NCBI GenBank assembly: GCA_910890315.1
Contig: CAJVGD010000010.1
Coordinates: forward strand, 744,001-808,000
Direction of reading: 5' to 3'
DNA from: Serendipita indica DSM 11827
Lineage: Eukaryota; Basidiomycota; Agaricomycetes; Sebacinales; Serendipitaceae
Length of the DNA: 64,000 nt
In this document: positions 27,041 through 40,222 of the stretch, in pieces
Position numbering within the stretch: the first letter of the stretch is position 1
Layout: every line of letters begins with the position of its first letter
Made by a program: the position numbers and the translations under genes
The notes under the pieces: model-generated
What the model saw: the letters and a program-made list of their open reading frames with translations, nothing else
What the model was told of the DNA's origin: nothing
Databases searched by the model: none

Positions 27041-29079
27041 TGCGGCAGCCTGTTGTCTCTACCCTCCTAGATACCACTTTCCGGTTTAAACTCTAACGGA
27101 AATAGCGCCCAGAGGTCCATCAAAACTCTGCATCCTTTCTGCGCAGTGAACTCAGACGTTCGTGACTTGCGGTCACCTATATCTCATGCTTCAGCTAGGC
27201 CTTTCGTCATGTATTCTTGTAATAACACCACATTTGGCCCACCTTTCCGGTCCCGAAGCGAGGTGCATTTAGGGTGGTCAACATACAGGAACGGAGGGCA
27301 AAGCAAATCAAAGGCGAGACTCGCTCAACATTGGCAGTGGCAGGATGTAGAGGCTACAGATGCCGAAAATGCTGGCGCTGTGGCGCACGACTTTCCTGGA
27401 GAACTGCAGGTGACCAAAGCAAAGGAAACAATACAAGTGAGTAGAAGTGATGTGGAAATGAACGAGAGTGGCTGGCGGGGTGGAGAGAGGCCTTGCAGGA
27501 AGTGTAAGAAGATTCGCGCCTAAATTTCTATGGAAAGAGGTGATCATCTTCGAGACATAGGCTATAATTTAGAAAGTTGTACAATAGGTGTACATGCGTT
27601 TTGAAAGATCACGCAATCTGAAGCGTTAGCTGCAGATGGCCCGGATTTCCTTTCTGTCGCAGAAGACTTCGCTCTTTGGGCACTCATAAGAGGGCATAGA
27701 ACGAAGATTTATTTGTCCAAACGACTGGATATTCGACGGTATATCAACCCCCCCTGTTCATCGGGCATACTCCAAGGAAAGGCGACCTCATTTGTCGTTT
27801 CCAATTCAGGCCCTTCTTCACATATTCACTACTGAAGTTTCTTGGTCAAATCCATCGGCGAAGGTGGCCAAAGGACCGTGTCTTGCTTTGCGGATATCCT
27901 TCGGAATGCCGTATGAATGCCACAAAAACGATCATAGCAACGTAGATTCTAACAAAGTCTCGAGACCGGAATGCCCTTGTCCACTTTGTCTCTTGGTAAT
28001 GGTGGATACGGTGTATGAGTCCACCAAATTGATCATATGCGAAGCGCTTCGCTTCCTCGGAGATTTCTGACTCCTCAGAAAAGACTTCAGGTGATATGGA
28101 ACTCCCTTTGCTGAGCAGTCCACGTTGTGGAAGCATTCGACTGCAATCTGGGTGAAACCGCGAGTGACAAGAGCGGAGCTACTGATCTCGTGATTGCCCA
28201 GGTATGTCTCTGTGTCGTGCAGGGACAAGAGGTTTAGCTCCCAGCATGGTCGAAATTTGTCGCGAAATATTTGCTGACAAAAAAGCTGACTAGAAGCTGA
28301 GCAAAAAGGGTACCCGCGCCGGAAAGTGGGATAGACAGGGTATTTTACGAGTGGTGAAGGGTGCGCTTGAAGAGGTCGGCTCCAAAAGTCAAGGCCCCAA
28401 GACGACGAAGTAACCGACGCCAGCTACAACCGGAGATGGTCCCCAATGGCTGGGTACCAGCTGCAAATGAAGAAGATGGTATTATTCCCGTATCCTTTCC
28501 TATTTTCGTAACATACTCTTGGCAAACTTCGAACGACACCTCCCAGCCTGCACTCATCACCTATACAATAGAGCGTACCTAGACCCACGAACTTAATCAC
28601 CCTAATAAGCGCCCCATGTCTTGTTAATGATCGCGCCTTGGTTCCATGTAGTACCTGCTAGCGAGGGCAAATAAGATATATATATCTCTCTCTCTCCAAA
28701 AGTCAAGGGTACCACGCTAAATGTAACCTTTGCTACAGCTCAGCAGTAAAATAGCAATTAATATCATAATATTCCATAGATATATGTTCCCTGGTCTGCC
28801 TCTCCACGAGTTGTGCTCTCACAGCTGTCGTCTGCAATTGAATGAGCTCATTGAAACCCCACTATTAAGCGCCGTGTCTACCGTGAAAACGAGGCTTGTA
28901 GGCGCTGGGTGCACCTCTCTGTGGCTCAGAGCCTGGCGACCATTGGACCCTCCCACATTTCCACCAGAGCACTTTCTGGTTTAATTCCGACTCTTCTTTA
29001 ACCCGTTATCACCGGATAACCTCTTCAGAAATCGATTAGAGTGCATCCCTAATTCCCTCGAATATTTTTCAAGCCACTA
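27041..29079. other. Two-kilobase stretch with no convincing gene
   Basis: Open frames at 27146-27523 and 27792-28070 (plus) and 27846-28228 (minus) overlap and lack recognisable domains or joined exons. A TA/CT microsatellite lies at 28675-28697. This is the longest gene-poor stretch in the window. Confidence 0.5.
28675..28697. repeat. TA/CT compound microsatellite
   Basis: A short (TA)n run passes directly into (TC)n over about 23 bp in the otherwise gene-free stretch. Confidence 0.85.
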
Positions 29080-31810
29080 ATGTTTGACGAATCCGAGCTC
29101 GAGCTGGAACTCCTCTCGTTAGACCCGGGACCGCAGACAATCGGTGAACACGAGCTCAAGACGTCTCCTTTGATCACATATGACGCCGCAAAGCTTACAG
29201 CTGATCAATTCACCCAAAGAGGTTTGCTAGGCGGCGTCCTTGCCGTCAACGCGAGCGGTTTACCACCGACTCTGAAGGATCCAAGAATCTACATAAACCT
29301 CGATGCTCCTTCTAGTGGACTTGTATGCGGAGTCCAGGTACGTTTAATATCTGGTGAGGATTGGCCACTGCTCTGACGGTCACTCAAGGGCTCAGGCAAA
29401 AGTCATACCGTTTCGTGTATCATTGAAGGATCACTCATGATGGATCGGCGTATTGGAACGCTGCCCGCGCCTTTGGCTACCGTCGTGTACGTTAGTGTCA
29501 GCCTATAATCCCTTAACTGAGCCATCAACAGGTTTCACTACGACGAAGAGAATGGAGGACGTCCGTGCGAGGCAGCGTACCTCAGCGAGCTCAAGACTGG
29601 TAGCGCTCGTGGTGTCGAGGAAGTAGTCGTTCTCGTTTCGTATGTGCCTCTCGATTTGAGACCCATCCCATAAGGCTGATCCGGTTAATCCTCCTGGTCT
29701 CGGAATTGCCCACATCGCAACTAGCCCAAGCAATCTCAATACCAGGCGCAGAGTCTACTCGTCTTTGACACACGTCAAGGTTGAGCCATTGAGGATCTCC
29801 GAGACAGACCTAAATGCATCCCGTATGCTGAGTATGATGGGCGCCGACAATTTAGAAGTGAGTATTATACTCATAAAGAACCTCCACTGACCCCGTTGAT
29901 GAGACCATGCCTCTGTATTTGTTTTCCGCGATGGCCATTCTCCGCGAAATGGGCTCAGACGGATTCAGTTATCAGGGTGCGCTTGATGTTCTGGAGCTGA
30001 CCCAAGACTCATCCTTTACAGGTTTCAGGAAGAAGCTGGCCGAGTCGGACTTCAACCGCACACAACAGTCAATGCTCCAACTTCGACTTGACCTCCTTGA
30101 CTCTTTCCTCAAAGGGACGGGCAAGGATATCGTCAAGTTTTTCAATTCGGGAAGACTCGTTATCGTTGACCTTTCTGATCCTTTTGTTGATGGTTAGTAT
30201 TCTGCATCCCTCATTCCTAACTTACCTTGCATAGGCGTCACTGCCGCTATGCTATTCAACATCTGTTTGGGACTGTTCATTGAATGGAAGAACACGACAG
30301 GAAAGCTAATCGGTGCGCTTGTTATCAAATAATGCAAACGCGACTCATCGGCGATTAGTACTTGATGAAGCGCATAAATACCTTACCAACGCGGATGCAA
30401 ATCAGTTCACTCGCAGTATCTGCAGCATTATTCGACAGCAGCGACATCTTGCCGCACGTGTCGTTGTTTCCACTCAGGAGCCCACAGTAGTCCCCCCTTC
30501 AGTGCTTGACCTGATGTCGTGGATCATTTGCCACCGTTTCACCTCACCAAGTTGGGTCAAACACCTGATGCACCACATCTGTGTCGACGAAACCAGTGTG
30601 GGGGAAGACGACAATAACGGCAGTGGAAGCAATGCGCCAGATTGGGCCAAACAGGTAATGAGGTTACGCACGGGAGAGGGTTTATTGTGCTCCGCCTCTG
30701 CACTCTTCCCATCAAAGGAAGGAACATTGGAGAGACTGGGCACTGGATACGCAGTAATCAAGTCGCGAATGAGACTTACAAGAGACGGTGGGGAATCAAT
30801 TCTGGCAACGGACTCGACGTCGACCGCAGAGCATGTTCCCTTGGCGGGTCTTGCAACGCCAGAGTCCTCCACTTCGAGCGGAAACCCATCGCCTGAGCTT
30901 GGTCTCCGTTTGGGGTCTCAAGTTCACTGCGTAGATACCTCGAACGACACACCAGTGAGTGTCGACGTTCACCTTCTAACGGAGCTTAATGGTCTGCAGT
31001 CAACTGCATCTTCACCCTCTCTTACGGAAAAGATCCTCAGCCCTCGAATGTCGACGCTAGAAGCAGGTTCAAGACTCTTCAAGCCACCAACGTACACGGA
31101 TATTGGCTCCCAAAGCGTACGTACTTTGCCTTGTCTTCATGTAGCTACTGAAACTTCAGCAGGAGAACGAGCACGTAACAAAGGGATTGAACGCCTTCAC
31201 TGATGTCTCATCTACGCCCGTGTTGGTGATCCCGCGAGCTCGACCAAAGTCTATGGTGCACAATATTGCACCAGCCTTTCCCGTCTCCTCGACACCGTCT
31301 CAAAGCGTATTCGCTAAGACACAAGATCCTCAGTTCGACGTTCTGATCAAGGGTCTTGTCGAAAATAACGGCCGTGCACTTCACCAGTCCCTCCTCGATC
31401 GTGTTCACCAACTTTCCCCGAATCCTTATCCAACTGGTGAAAAAAAGCCCTGGAAGAACTTCCTGACTAGAGCAGAGGCGGCGGGAATCGTCACTCTCTC
31501 CGGTTCAGGGAGTAAAAAGATGGTCACACTCATTCCGGGGACCACCTTCTCCCAGGCCCAAAAGACCGCTTCTACGCTTATTCAGCAGTCTATTCCTTCC
31601 GGGGAAAGTTCATATGCGGTGTTGATAAGCGCGCTCTCAACATTGGCCCCCGGCAGGGGGGTCGTTAGAATTTGCGACCTAGGTCAAGAATTCAAGAAAA
31701 GAAAGTTCAAACACGACGGGAGGTTGAAAGATTTTCTTATTCAGGCAGAACAGAACGGCGTGGTCAAGCTTTCGGTGAGAAACAAGATGGATCACGTCCA
31801 ACTGGCATGA
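29080..31810 (+). CDS. HerA/FtsK-like P-loop ATPase with C-terminal winged-helix-like repeats (intact site)
   Basis: The N-terminus is MFDESELELELLSLDPG. Exon 1 ends SSGLVCGVQ and joins in frame to GSGKSHTVSCIIEG, giving a full Walker A. Walker B is LIVLDEAHKYL around 30.35 kb, joined across an intron. It is followed by a sensor-like strand VVVSTQEPTVVPPSVLDLMS and IICHRFTSPSWVKHL. This order fits the HerA/FtsK branch of P-loop ATPases, known as DNA or protein pumps, but the subfamily is not one I can name. A Ser/Thr linker then leads to two related units of about 65 residues: FDVLIKGLVENNG...KNFLTRAEAAGIVTL and YAVLISALSTLAP...KDFLIQAEQNGVVKL. These look like winged-helix or LOTUS (OST-HTH) folds. 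Six or seven introns. A related but degenerate gene lies at 34.5-37.8 kb. Confidence 0.75.
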
Positions 31811-32035
31811 AGCTCTCTTGCTTTTCAACTCAACCTTCGTAATACCAAGCAATTCCGTCACTTTCATGTCGCATGTAGCTCTTATACCATTCTTTTCTAT
31901 TAACTGCGACAGGGACAAATATTGAGTAAGATACGGCTACACCCTTTTCCAGAGAAATATGTGATCAAAAATGTCGAAAGATGCCATCAAATATGACGCG
32001 AAGAGATCGGCCAAGCTGTACGAGATGGACAAAAA

Positions 32036-33506
<1,471 letters not shown>

Positions 33507-34457
33507 TGCGGGCAGACTGGGGATCGACAAGGGCGGAATCAGAAGGTTCCTGACCTGCCGCCGCTCGATATCTGGCCAGACGGACTCTTTGGCCAGTACG
33601 CATTTCCCTCAGGTTTAATTTATTCATATATTAAGCAGGAGAAATAGATTGTTCAGAGTATGTCAACGACTTATGCATCAACAAAGGTTGAGCAACTCTG
33701 CGACGAAGGAAAGCGAACACGAGCCAAGACTTCTCGAAAATATAAAGGACAAGAGGAGACTTGGGGGCGGATTCCATTAGTAGTGGACGATGTAAAGAGA
33801 TTTTCACTCCTCGTCCACATTTTATCTGACACCGTCACAGCGGATGGACGTATCGAACAACCGAAGAGACGGATATCTTGCCTGTACACTTGTCATCCAT
33901 GTCAGAAACGAGGTGTCCCCGACGCGGAACTGGCTAAACGAAGACAGTCGCAGGTCAGCAAAGGGCATGCGTCTGATCAGCAGTAAGAGAAAGGAGACTC
34001 GCCATTTGTCAAAAGCCTATAGCTACCAGGGCTTGTCCGGGGTCTAGGTATGGGGATGCGCAGCCTACCAGCACCACGAGGGCGTGGTGGGCGTATGCGC
34101 ACTTTGAGGAATCCGGTCGTTTGGTATCGAGGCGACAGTCCCCGGGAGAGTTCTACAAATTTCTGTCAATTTTTCGATAGACGTCTTATCTCAGACTCAC
34201 GGACGATGAGGTTCAAGCTCCAAGGTCATTGGTTAGTGCGCTTGGGTAGTCTCATTGATTGGTTCCTCCCATATACTCCATTTGCGTCCTTCGAAACTTC
34301 TGAGAATAAATCATTCTTATTTGTAGACCACCTGACAAACGAGACTTGCATCGTCATTCGCGGAGAATGCGTTTTAATTTACTCCTTACTCTTCCGAGTA
34401 GAGTTGTCTGCCACCATTCTGTATAAGAATCTAGACTGGCATTTTATCCACGGACAA
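33507..34457. other. Intergenic stretch upstream of the MAP kinase
   Basis: It should hold the MAP kinase promoter and the 3' end of the second ATPase gene. A plus-strand frame at 34050-34796 is open, but its right half is antisense to the ATPase C-terminus and it shows no domain, so I do not call it. Confidence 0.45.
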
Positions 34458-37400
34458 CTACTTGTTCGTCATGCGTTGTCCCTGTGTTGCAGAATGTCCG
34501 TTGACCGAGTTCGATTTACCTGGAAAACGCCAGTCTTGCATTGCGATCCACGCCTTGTCCCCCGAATCTCCTGTCACCACGACACCTTGTCTCGCCGCCG
34601 CCGCTACATACTCTTTGAACGTCAGCCCCAACCTTGCCCTCGCCGACGGTGGAAGTTCTTGTCCAACCACCGAGTGGCGCACGCACTGTGCGCGATTATG
34701 CGGAGAGCTAACTTGTACCCGCGCCTTTTCCAATGCGTCGAGCAATGGCCAAAAGAAAGATTCCGGATAGACCGGTGGTGGTGGTGGTGGTGGTGAAGAC
34801 GAGGGCCCTGTAGAGCCCACACCCTCCGAGGAACTGAACTGGTTGGATGCATTAGACGAGCCGACGCCGTTGACTTGCGACCGCCCGGCCGTATCCTATC
34901 AACACTCTCGTGAGCGAGCGGAGCTCGTCTAATGACAAGACGACACGCACCATTTGTGGGCCGAGCAAAATGGCAGTGGCACGACGTTGAATGGTGCCGT
35001 CAGATACAGGTGCCTAATCCCAAGTTGGATCGCATCAGAACGCAAAACTCAAAAAGGTAGCGACAAGGCTCGCACCGTGACTCCGGCGTAGCTTCGCTTG
35101 AGGCCCAATGCGGCTAATCCATAGCTGCTCGACGGACCCGAGGAGCCTGCCGGACCACCTCCAGACGTTGCTACGCCTGCTTGGGCTAGGGGTCGTCCGT
35201 TGGATGAGGGAAGCGCGTCACGCATTGCACCAACGTCCACAAAGTCACCTCCACCGCTATCCGTGTCTGCTTTTGAGAACTGCCCTTCGCTTGCGCTGGA
35301 CATGCTCATCGTCATCGGTCGATAGCGGTCGAGGTGTGGACTGGGCACCCCGTTCCCGTCTCCATGAGCGGGAAAGAAGTGGCTCGAGATGGAAGAGGAG
35401 CTGTTCGAGAAGCTGTTTCCGTACTGAGATGTCCCAGCAACTTCTTGGCCCCTCCTTGCCATCGAAAAGGGAGAAAATGTTGCGCCTCCGGGAGAACACC
35501 GCGACTTGTCGGTGATATTGGGCTCGTTACCGCCCCAGCCGAGAGATACGTAGAGTTCAACGAACCCACGGTGCCCCTGTTCAAGGGAACTTCAGGCGAA
35601 GAGGCGGTTGGACTCACAATCGTGTCGAATGGGGACGATGTTGTGCGGGGAATGGAACGTCCAATTGTGCCAATTCCTGGAGGTGAGTGAAGGGAGACAT
35701 GCACTGACGCCGGTGTTCCCAGTTGTGTCTCGCTGGGCTGTCGCCATGGCTCGTAGGCCCCTCCCTCGATGCCAACACTGGACGAGAGTAAAGACGGCCG
35801 GATTCCACCGTAATTTACACTGTTGGTGGATCCAATCTCCAGGTCAGCAAGTTGGGGACTTCGTTTGGCGGCCGTGTGGTCGAGATTGGCTGGCGGATAC
35901 AGAGCCGTCGATCCGGTGGTTCGCATGGGCGATGTGATCGGAATACTGACTGGTTTCAGCGAGACCATCAATAGCTGTCGTCCGAGAGATGGGGATGTGG
36001 TGGCTGGTTTGACAGTTGGGCGCTGAATAGGGCCAAAAACGTTGCGAGGGTGGCCATTAGTCATAGCGCCTGCAGACTCATTGTGCTTATTTGCTTGAAA
36101 GTTCTGAGATTGGTCGTGGCCTTTGAAGCAGACGAGGACACGTCCGGCCTCGAGATCTAGAATTTGCTCTATGGTACTGATCGAAGTCAAGTTTGCGTCT
36201 GAGACTGTATTATCGGTGATATTGAAAACTTGGTGGACACGAGGCTGCAGGAACCAGTGCTTCTCGAGGCTTTGCAACCAGCGAGGGGCGGTGAATCGGT
36301 GAATAATCAAATACGAGAGGTGATCGAGAACATTTGGAGCCAAAGACACGGGTGACTGTGAGAGAATGACAAGATGCGGTGTCGTTTTTGAGGCTGGCGT
36401 TTTGCTGAGTGGTAGAGGAGCGACGAGGCTAGCAAGGGTCCTAGAAAAGGGGCTCTCGTCCTGAGAAAGATAGATATGTGCATCATCGCAGACTATCAAT
36501 CGAGTTTGTCAGCCAAGCGACGACCACCATTTCGCAAGAGTGGGAGAACTAACCGACGAGAGATTGCGCTGGTACTGGTGTCGACTCTTCCACATGGCAC
36601 GACCAAGATTTGGTGATGATATCAGCAAGTGTATGCTGGAGAACGAGCTCCGTCGGGTCGAAACCGGAGAGGTCGACACACAAGAGGAATGGGTCATTAG
36701 GTATGCTTGTCCCTTTTTCGGCCGCAGCGGACATTGCGGACTGACGAGAGCGAGTCCAAGACACCCAGTCTAGTGAAGCCGAAGGGAGCTGGTTCTCTGT
36801 GGACCCATTGGTAGATAAAAAGCAGCGGAGTTGGGCGGGGATATCGTCATGTGATATGGAGCCTGTGGGGGGTTATGAAGATTGGATCGCCAATTTGGGA
36901 TTTAGAGAGAGAGATTTACCTGACCGAGCTTGCTCCTGAGCGTGAAAAGGGTGCCAGTCAGGCTGATAAACGCTTTGAAGAAACGCAAGGTGACCGAGTG
37001 ATACATCTTGAAGATGAACTTTGATGGGAAGAACGGAGATATTCTTGGCCGTCCCGGCAAGGTTGGCCGAGAGTTCGCTAACCTTCCAAGGGCTGCAGAG
37101 TTGATTAGCAAACTAATTCATGAGCTATTTCGTGTAACTGACACTGTCAGGACGACAACTTCGGCCTCTTGACCGACGTCCTGCGCTGCCAGAGTCGCCG
37201 AGGTGGCCACCCCAAAGGAGCCATGGTCGGTTGTGAAGCTGAGTGAATAATGTCAGCCTCGAGGTGATTTCGAATGAGACTGTGTACCAGAGGATGCCTC
37301 GGAATGGGGAAGGATCATGGATAGACCATGCAGAGCGAATCAAGTGGCGGAGGATCGAATACTTGGTATTGTTCTGCAGAAATTAGGAATATAAATGAGT

Positions 37401-37828
37401 TTTCATAGGACAAAAGATTCGTTCAAGAGGGGACTGGCGGCGCAGTTGTCGGATTCGTGTTAACCACCCACCTCGAGCCCCGTCACTAGGACGCCACGAT
37501 CACAACCAGCAGTAGGTCGAAAGTAGAGCGGAGTAGTATATAATGACCTGTGGGCTTGCTGGGTGCTCTTTGGGGTGCCTTCTGTGCCTAGAGAAAGCGC
37601 CTGACCGTCTGGAATGGTGCAGCGGCCAGGCATCGTCGCGACTCCATGTGAGAGATTTTCCGGGTGATTTTGAGAGAGTATAGCGTGTCCAAACGGTATA
37701 GCGCGTTGTGAGTGGCTGTCGGGGGCAGCGACGGGTTCATTTGCCCCTTCAGAGGCGCGTTTGGCGCTGCCCGAGCCAGGAAGCGGGCTCGGTAGGAGAC
37801 TAGGAGAAGAAAAGGAGAAACAAGACAT
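34458..37828 (-). CDS. HerA/FtsK-like ATPase homologue with degenerate nucleotide site
   Basis: This gene runs parallel in structure to the one at 29.1-31.8 kb. Exon 1 ends DRGVLVTGLE where the intact relative has SSGLVCGVQ. The next exon begins NNTKYSILRHLIR where the relative has GSGKSHTVSCIIEG, so of the Walker A loop only the Lys remains. Later segments match: EAEVVVLTV against EEVVVLVS, Walker B LVVCDDAHIYL against LIVLDEAHKYL, and HLVILSQSPVSLAPNVLDHL with LIIHRFTAPRWL. A long Ser/Thr/Pro linker with a poly-Pro run (34773-34795) leads to one winged-helix-like unit, FFWPLLDALEKAR...FKEYVAAAARQGVVV. The start is ATG 37828 (MSCFSFSSPSLLP). About eight introns; some joins in the linker are uncertain. 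It probably does not hydrolyse ATP. Confidence 0.7.
34773..34795. repeat. GTG/CAC triplet run encoding poly-Pro on the minus strand
   Basis: About seven near-perfect triplets encode a run of Pro just before the winged-helix-like unit of the degenerate ATPase homologue. Length variation here would change only the linker. Confidence 0.8.
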
Positions 37829-38567
37829 GGACAAGAGGCTACAAGACGAGAAAGGAGAAGACGAGTAATATGGTGGACGACGTCGGGGACAAGAAACAAG
37901 GGTGCACTGGCAGCTGGCCTGGCGCTGACTGACAAGCTAGATTATCGGGATCAGATTTTAGAGTTTAGAGAGAATCAGAGTCTGGCGAGCCATCAACGCA
38001 GCCCAATGCATCCAGCTCGAACACGGATCACATTCCATTTAGGGGCCGCGACTGGATAACATAATCCAGCCTCCGTCTCGTACTTTTTCAGTTGACGGAC
38101 CCGCGTTTGGTTGCCAGTCTCACTGGTTGCGCCCCCAGCATTAAACGCCACGACAAGCGCCCGTCTTCTAGCCCACCAGATTGGCAAGCTCGATCCACGC
38201 AACGTCTGCATAACACGACCGGGCTTTGGTCTGCTAGACGTCTCTTTGGCTCATCCCGCGACCCATAGTTGTGAAAATGCACGTGGCGCCATTTACCGGT
38301 AAATTCTCAACGCCGCCGTGTCATAAAATCTATGCCACAGATGCAACGGGGTTCCCCGCCCTCTTGAATGCCTCACACTCACAGTCCATGCGGGTCCGCT
38401 GTCGTTACATAGACTGGATTCGCTACAACTCACACAACGCTCCTCCGCGTATCGGAGTGGGCGATACATTTCGGAAAACATGATGTCGAAACAAGGTGAG
38501 ACGGTGGTGACTACGACAGCGTTAGATTATTTCCGACTCGCGTCAGACACTCACTGGTCATTCTTAT
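37829..38567. other. Intergenic stretch between the degenerate ATPase gene and the NTF2-RRM gene
   Basis: Only short overlapping frames without domains are present. It should contain the promoter of the minus-strand ATPase homologue and the 3' untranslated region of the NTF2-RRM gene. Confidence 0.5.
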
Positions 38568-40222
38568 TCAGGCTTTGCCTCTTGTCCCATCTCCCCGTCC
38601 TCGCGGCCCCCCACGTCCACGATAGCTGCCGCCTGGAGATCCTCCTCCCGTCTGCGAACCTCCGGCTACACCCCGTCCTTCCCCAGCCACACCGACGGAC
38701 ACACCTCCCCTTCCACGAGGAGCTGGTCGGTCTCCCCTTTCCTTCCTCGTTTCGACATTGATCCTCGCCGGGCTCCCATACTTTTCCTCATCAAACCGAA
38801 TCCCACCTTCTCCGCCTGCCCCCGGATGCAAGCTCGCAATAATTGCCTTCTTTGCACTGTCGATTGACTTGAACTCGATGAATGCACACGCCTTGCTTCG
38901 CACAATCTCAACTTCTTTGATAGGTCCAAACCGAGTAGAGAGGACTTGCTCCAACGCCTGCTGCGGAATGTTTTCCGTCACTCCCTTGACAAAGCACATC
39001 GCCGTCGTCACCGACAACGCCGCCGCATACAGTGGATGCTGGTTCGCAGGTGGAATGTTTCGTGGGCCAACTCCACCTGGTTGCAGCACCGGATCGCCCC
39101 CAGCACTGGGTGCCGTAGGAGCATTCCCTCCTGCTCGTTCTCGTGGAGGTTGGGCCTGCGTCGCCCCAGCGGCTGGATGAGGCGCAGCAGCACTCACTCC
39201 CTTGGCTTCCTGTGCAACATTCTGACCCCACTTTGATGAATTGGTCGCAGCGAGGCTCGCCCACGTCTTTGGAGCTGGCGGACCCGCAGGTTGTGGAGTC
39301 GCTGGTTGCGAAGGTGCCTCTGTGGATGGAGGAAGAGCACTAGGCGGTGCTGGCGATGGCGACTTACGTGCTGGAACTGGACTCGGCGCGGCCGGAGGAG
39401 TGGAAACAGGCTCTTGCGTCGGTTCAATCACGTCTGGTACCGTTGGCAGCGCGGGTTCAGGGGTGGGTGTCGGTGGTCGAGGAGCTGGTTCCACATATGT
39501 GCTTTCCGGAACCGCTGGTGGTGCAGGCGTCTCTTTGGGGGTGATAGGTACCGGAGCGGTCACGGCGGGAATAGGTGCAGGAGCGGCAATCGTTGGAGGC
39601 TGTTGCACCGACGTCGCCTCTGCTGTACCATGATATCCGTTTGTGTGCGGCTGGTTGTACGACACGTCCTCTGCGACTGATGGTGGACCCTGCTCGGACT
39701 GCAGCTGATGGTCGTCTGGATTCTCTTCCTCTTCATCAAATGTCTCCTCCTTTAGGAAGCGAAAGTTGTCGTTTAAGACGAAATAACCGTTTTGCTGTTC
39801 AGCCAGGAAGAAGACTTGGACAAACTTCTTCCATGCCTCCCCACGGTTCGACATCTCGCCAATGACGTGAACAAGAATGCCATTATTTGCACTCGGGTGC
39901 GCGTCGACAGAGTGAATGAACACTTTGCAGTCTTTGAACCCGATTTCGACAAACTTTTTGTGGATAGCGGTCTGACCCTGGAGGAGATCCGTGTCTTCGC
40001 CTTCGATCCCATGCAAATAGTGCGATGATTTTGTATAGAACCGATGCAACTGGTCAGGCTTATCGTTCATGTATGTATAGTATTGCACGACAAACTGCCA
40101 TGCCACCTGGGAAACTGATGGCATTGGAACACTTGAGCAAACTCATTAGCATCTAGCTTGGCGAACTGACCCGTTCCCGTTGCGGTGGTTGCGGTTTGCG
40201 CGGCCACTGGTTGATTCGACAT
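38568..40222 (-). CDS. G3BP/Nxt3/Bre5-like NTF2 and RRM protein
   Basis: G3BP-type proteins bind RNA and help assemble stress granules; the yeast relative Bre5 is a cofactor of the deubiquitinase Ubp3. A short first exon codes MSNQPVAAQTATTATG and joins to SQVAWQFVVQYYTYMNDKPD. The NTF2-like domain covers residues 20-140 (HRFYTKSSHYLHGIEGED, IHSVDAHPSANNGILVHVIG, FVQVFFLAEQQNGYFVLNDN). A long Pro/Ala/Glu-rich middle follows, then an RRM with CFVKGVTENIPQQALEQVL and KACAFIEFKSIDSAKKA, and an RGG-rich tail ending GRGDGTRGKA. All parts of the family plan are present in the usual order. The gene has two exons, the second very long. Confidence 0.92.

Follow-up and report, generated by a model that had tools for sequence, protein, structure and literature searches.

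Two genes in the genome of the fungus Serendipita indica DSM 11827 raise the question of what becomes of a DNA-pumping ATPase once its motor has been lost. They lie about 2.6 kb apart in a 64,000-nucleotide window of contig CAJVGD010000010.1 (C10:744001-808000 of a 24.7-Mb genome; positions without a contig prefix count from the start of this window), and a sequence-only reading had taken them for paired HerA/FtsK-like ATPases, one intact (left) and one with a ruined P-loop (right), that might assemble into a hetero-oligomer. We find that left is the only intact clade-6 HerA/FtsK member found in this genome, and that right is one of six degenerate relatives and no unique partner of left. Judged by their sequences, these six are linked and fast-diverging, have no ATP-binding and hydrolysis motifs, and keep sequence elements of the core. 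The reported pair belongs to a larger set of genes that have likely turned from pumps into binders, and our favoured reading, to which we give a probability of roughly 55%, is that left would be a DNA-translocating ring and that the other six, deprived of the motor, would act as binders or regulators by way of their winged helices.

An intact HerA-type ATPase and a relative without a P-loop

The left gene encodes a HerA/FtsK P-loop nucleoside triphosphatase (NTPase) core in which Walker A and Walker B are both intact, with GLVCGVQ, an intron, GSGKSH, VLDEAH, VSTQEPT and CHRFTSPSW in succession. With all nine introns removed, its product is identical to the database protein P0001 at 757 of 759 residues; since P0001 is itself free of all nine introns, we take it to derive from a transcript or from a gene predictor. 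Eukaryotic clade-6 HerA/FtsK domains, widespread in fungi and with a function that is only predicted, have been described as combining a four-helix insert in the NTPase domain, the signature hxhxxRxRhsxDsGx[ST], one or two C-terminal winged helices and, at the N-terminus, an extension of winged-helix ancestry (PMC10853773, Nucleic Acids Res 2024). The left protein resembles them in its HerA core, in the signature, present as AVIKSRMRLTRDGGES, in its two C-terminal winged-helix-like units, in its fungal origin and in a Pfam scan that stayed below every cut-off and showed no nuclease domain. Its predicted structure places helices 186-192, 203-215, 222-231, 236-253 and a short one at 260-263 between strands 172-176 and 268-273, that is, at the insert position, as seen without superposition on the published insert; residues 1-57, a region looked at in the model alone, form helices and strands.

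Walker A is near-universal among the 120 homologs of left that were listed: the pattern GxGK[ST] occurs in 118, the other two being short at the N-terminus, and the C-terminal signature in 115 by its strict and 118 by its relaxed form. The closest named relatives among these matches are Serendipita species. When left is aligned to 4d2i_A, the alignment opens at residue 111 of 4d2i, so that the N-terminal HAS domain of prokaryotic HerA (a name used in PMC9960219) falls outside the aligned part; left differs from archaeal and bacterial HerA (4d2i, 7f6d, SIR2-HerA, DUF4297-HerA) both in leaving this domain uncovered and in its added C-terminal winged helices. No close prokaryotic or viral relative was found by a pattern search, which matched 11 stretches in GTDB contigs and 27 in IMG/VR, none of them confirmed by tblastn. 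A viral fold library returned 32 matches at E <= 0.001, the best unnamed (3.0e-9) and the rest mostly packaging ATPases, FtsK-like and unnamed proteins. Left is probably a translocase of double-strand DNA that would form a ring, its C-terminus probably holding two winged helices. The label 'Zona occludens toxin' carried by some of its homologs accompanies a faint match to Zot, seen at E <= 0.01 in 27 of 62 members, and gives no indication of toxicity.

The right gene follows the same plan with neither Walker motif: VLVTGLE, an intron, NNTKYS, VVCDDAH, LSQSP and IHRFTAPRW. Introns 1-3 of the two genes have phases 0, 2 and 2 at corresponding places. The earlier description of both genes holds in its particulars, namely their positions and P-loop residues, the change of the Walker B Asp-Glu to Asp-Asp, an intron exactly at the P-loop with matching joins, the shared HRFT.P.W motif, and winged-helix-like units at both C-termini. 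Its interpretation is borne out in part, for a degenerate HerA relative whose frame stays open but not for one half of a pair. The exon carrying the Walker B of right matches the family profile at E = 1.3e-10 among 5037 open reading frame (ORF) segments from C10:724001-922000, and its homology to the family is thus not due to chance. Right is about 30% identical to intact members over the aligned parts, and its nine exons are free of stops; the least certain parts of the model are the intron at 35530-35424 and the last joins. It retains a Lys in register with Walker A, the sensor Gln of LSQSP and HRFTAPRW, more than any of the other five degenerate members; the RQQRH stretch of the family was not found in it. 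The sequence-only reading had named transcripts with an exon restoring Walker A as one finding that would refute it, and we found no such pattern in any unspliced minus-strand frame at right or at the five other degenerate loci; a motif divided between two exons would have been missed by this search.

A linked family and its winged-helix-like units

Protein searches of the genome, with left, right and then two degenerate members as queries, recovered seven members, all on C10 and within about 135 kb (approximately 773 to 908 kb): left, right, g839, g898, g900, g903 and g907. Only the best candidates were scored, so more distant members could escape. One of the seven is intact and six have no P-loop. 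All seven retain a phase-0 intron at the P-loop, preceded by a similar strand (GLVCGVQ, VLVTGLE, GLICGSS, GLIVASD, GVVTGGS, GIVCGNS and GVVCANS, in the order above); after the intron, the GSGKSH of left is replaced by NNTKYS, SKELLR, MPSLEP, QGDNEI, KSASNT and RTTLTT. The Walker B Asp-Glu has become DD in right, DQ in g839, DG in g898, NN in g900 and g903, and SN in g907. A change of the Walker B Glu to Gln, as in g839, is the classic hydrolysis-dead substitution. HRF..P.W is kept in right only among the six, reads HDF in g839 and is unrecognisable in the four others. A scan of the 5037 segments for the C-terminal signature R.R..D.G.[ST] gave no match in right or at the other five loci, its two matches being left and a relaxed one at 867 kb outside the family. 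The hand-modelled stretches of right, g839 and g898 are open frames.

In a tree of 37 rows, 31 of them intact members chosen from 121, g839 groups with the four array genes in a single clade (98/92), and the placement of right is unsettled (87/87, long branches). A genome search with Pfam DUF87 did not detect the cluster; it gave four matches below the cut-off, on C12, C40, C2 and C15 (best E 0.0027), and these places, C12:566367-566480 and three further ones, are perhaps other ATPases.

A profile built from units of the array genes, left and right assigns, by position, two winged-helix-like units to left, one to right, three to g839, two each to g900 and g903, and three to g907; the stretch behind g898 holds eight at an independent E value (i-E) below 0.01 and ten if weak ones are counted. 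The right unit scores i-E 5.4e-22 with this profile, which contains that very unit, and since the profile was partly built from the units it scores, such values are not independent. With a profile lacking the left and right units, right scores i-E 0.0024 among the 5037 segments, and for the units of left a test on three sequences gave 5.4e-4 and 5.7e-5. The 120 listed homologs have no unit in 87 cases, one in 28, two in 3 and three in 2, counts that diverged units would escape. Mean identity among twelve array units is 25%. A single unit used as a genome query gave, besides C10, one weak match on C1 (E 0.099).

The one or two C-terminal winged helices of clade 6 are found here, and the S. indica set departs from the published family in two respects: right and the five others have no Walker A and no signature, and one stretch carries 8-10 units against the 1-2 given in PMC10853773. 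A literature search of listed titles and abstract openings found no report of degenerate or motor-dead fungal HerA paralogs. The intact family is already known; for the six linked relatives that have lost the motor and bear winged-helix units, the same search gave no published account.

What the motorless members may do

We propose that left would act as a DNA-translocating ring motor, and that the six degenerate members would be pseudo-ATPases serving, through their winged helices, as putative DNA-binding scaffolds or regulators and not as pumps. They would either recruit the intact motor or contend with it for sites on DNA. With the P-loop mutation K154A, HerA does not bind ATP-gamma-S or double-stranded DNA (PMC5715905), which speaks against DNA threading by rings made of dead subunits alone. 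A broader version of this proposal is tentative, and we hold it well short of even odds: in one fungal lineage a DNA pump family may have given rise to motorless DNA readers that use the ATPase core as a platform, their winged-helix units multiplied and diverged, alongside a single remaining motor whose action they could direct or obstruct.

Several observations weigh against the binder reading. Inspection by eye found no in-frame join between exons 2 and 3 in g907, and g900 and g903 require another acceptor (C10:901480-901797, 904130-904574 and 907790-908142); some degenerate copies may be decaying, or exons may have been missed, and the array at g898 may be more than one gene. The branches are very long, 6.0 for right and 6.9 for g898 where the median is 0.24, and are as compatible with relaxed constraint as with a new function. 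Right, the one degenerate member searched against the protein database, returned no homolog, ortholog or transcript-like copy at E <= 1e-3 or E <= 1 (7995 and 7994 scored candidates), yet the same database contained the spliced left protein. Regarding the units, structure prediction covered those of left, and those of the degenerate members are known from the profile; with a profile lacking the units of left, the left exon did not fall below i-E 1 among the 5037 segments. Winged helices can, moreover, bind protein or RNA in place of DNA.

The in-frame join not found in g907, the long branches and the missing database copy also speak for the main rival, in which the six would be duplicates of long standing, from a cluster that was once intact, and would be losing function in turn, right being a late pseudogene or barely expressed; at least four intact members in Serendipita vermifera, among the matches listed, also fit such an origin. 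We consider this fairly unlikely. Right is open across nine exons at about 30% identity, whereas copies of the left core under simulated neutral substitution (200 per identity level) acquired about six stops at 60% identity and ten at 33%, with none of 200 open at either level and 15 of 200 open at 80%; the test is weakened by the exon limits of right, which were set by hand so as to preserve the frame, a further point against our reading. The simulation argues for selection on the right protein over most of its history and makes no statement on its function today. Slow decay also sits poorly with the 16 residues after the intron, which align by eye without gaps in all six degenerate members and end in the same helix, and with winged-helix-like units that are kept or multiplied.

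HRF, the sensor Gln and the Lys in register, which right retains while losing nucleotide-binding residues, leave room for the hetero-oligomer originally suggested, in which right would join left in a mixed ring and supply trans-acting residues while left hydrolyses ATP. Heteromeric ATPase rings such as Pex1/Pex6 and Mcm2-7 include inactive domains. Left and right resemble those rings, which are built of unlike subunits (PMC10518020, PMC13049513), in being related ATPase subunits with differing active sites, and they are close neighbours. However, those complexes are demonstrated, while here the components are known from genes, contact between left and right is hypothetical, and six degenerate members face one intact member. 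Right also lacks RQQRH and the family signature, and we regard a mixed ring as unlikely. Very improbable is an origin in mobile elements, with the cluster left over from the 'novel genomic elements' suggested for this family and the degenerate copies as defective element genes: PMC10853773 gives mobility as a possible role and other fungi have several copies per species among the matches listed, but positions 27500-39500 around left and right, the region checked, contain no convincing inverted repeat (best pair 24 nucleotides at 79%), and a same-site intron in all copies on a single contig is as expected from local duplication.

If the motorless members, as the binder reading has it, are indeed expressed and bind DNA, they would show a ring motor family losing its motor while keeping its DNA-reading parts. 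A tested function for the intact fungal HerA/FtsK family was not found in the literature, and S. indica, whose small genome has a single intact member and six motor-dead ones together on one contig, offers a clean setting in which to learn it. Species of Serendipita live as endophytes in roots and are studied in connection with plant growth (PMC10607969), so research material should be available.

Feature coordinates and neighbouring genes

Table 1. Positions of the family members, their key elements and a neighbouring gene
Feature	Position	Strand	Remarks
Left gene, intact ATPase of HerA type; two winged-helix-like units at the C-terminus	29080..31810	+	759 amino acids, ten exons; near-identical to P0001
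Left exons	29080-29337, 29389-29486, 29532-29639, 29725-29857, 29904-29976, 30022-30192, 30235-30312, 30359-30954, 31000-31116, 31163-31810	+
Left intron 1, phase 0, directly 5' of GSGKSH (P-loop)	29338..29388	+	position common to 7/7 members recovered from the genome
Left Walker B, (V)LDEAHKYL	30359..30384	+	opening codons 3' of intron 7
Left last exon, two winged-helix-like units	31163..31810	+
Right gene, P-loop-less HerA paralog	37828..34458	-	943 amino acids, nine exons; hand-made model
Right exons	37828-37472, 37373-37288, 37238-37143, 37092-36920, 36862-36554, 36492-35531, 35423-35076, 35013-34951, 34895-34458	-
Right intron 1, phase 0, at the site of the P-loop	37374..37471	-	NNTKYS opens the next exon where left has GSGKSH
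Right Walker B, (V)CDDAHIYL, Asp-Glu to Asp-Asp	36467..36492	-	opening codons 3' of intron 5
Right last exon, one winged-helix-like unit	34458..34895	-	by profile
g839, P-loop-less paralog	C10:836277-840235		Walker B DQ; three winged-helix-like units
Four P-loop-less paralogs arrayed head to tail, g898, g900, g903, g907	C10:893838-908400		8-10 winged-helix-like units behind g898
Mitogen-activated protein (MAP) kinase with TEY loop	32139..33510	-	limits approximate; neighbour, outside the system

The MAP kinase between left and right looks ordinary, and the nearest PDB match of one 231-residue open frame is fungal MPS1 (E 2.2e-62). Beside the right gene, a large minus-strand open frame at 38568-40142 has NTF2 and RRM domains, and we take it to be G3BP-like. 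Next to the array, C10:888604-893555 encodes WSC-like repeats rich in cysteine and, after them, a glyoxal-oxidase-like frame, both named by eye.
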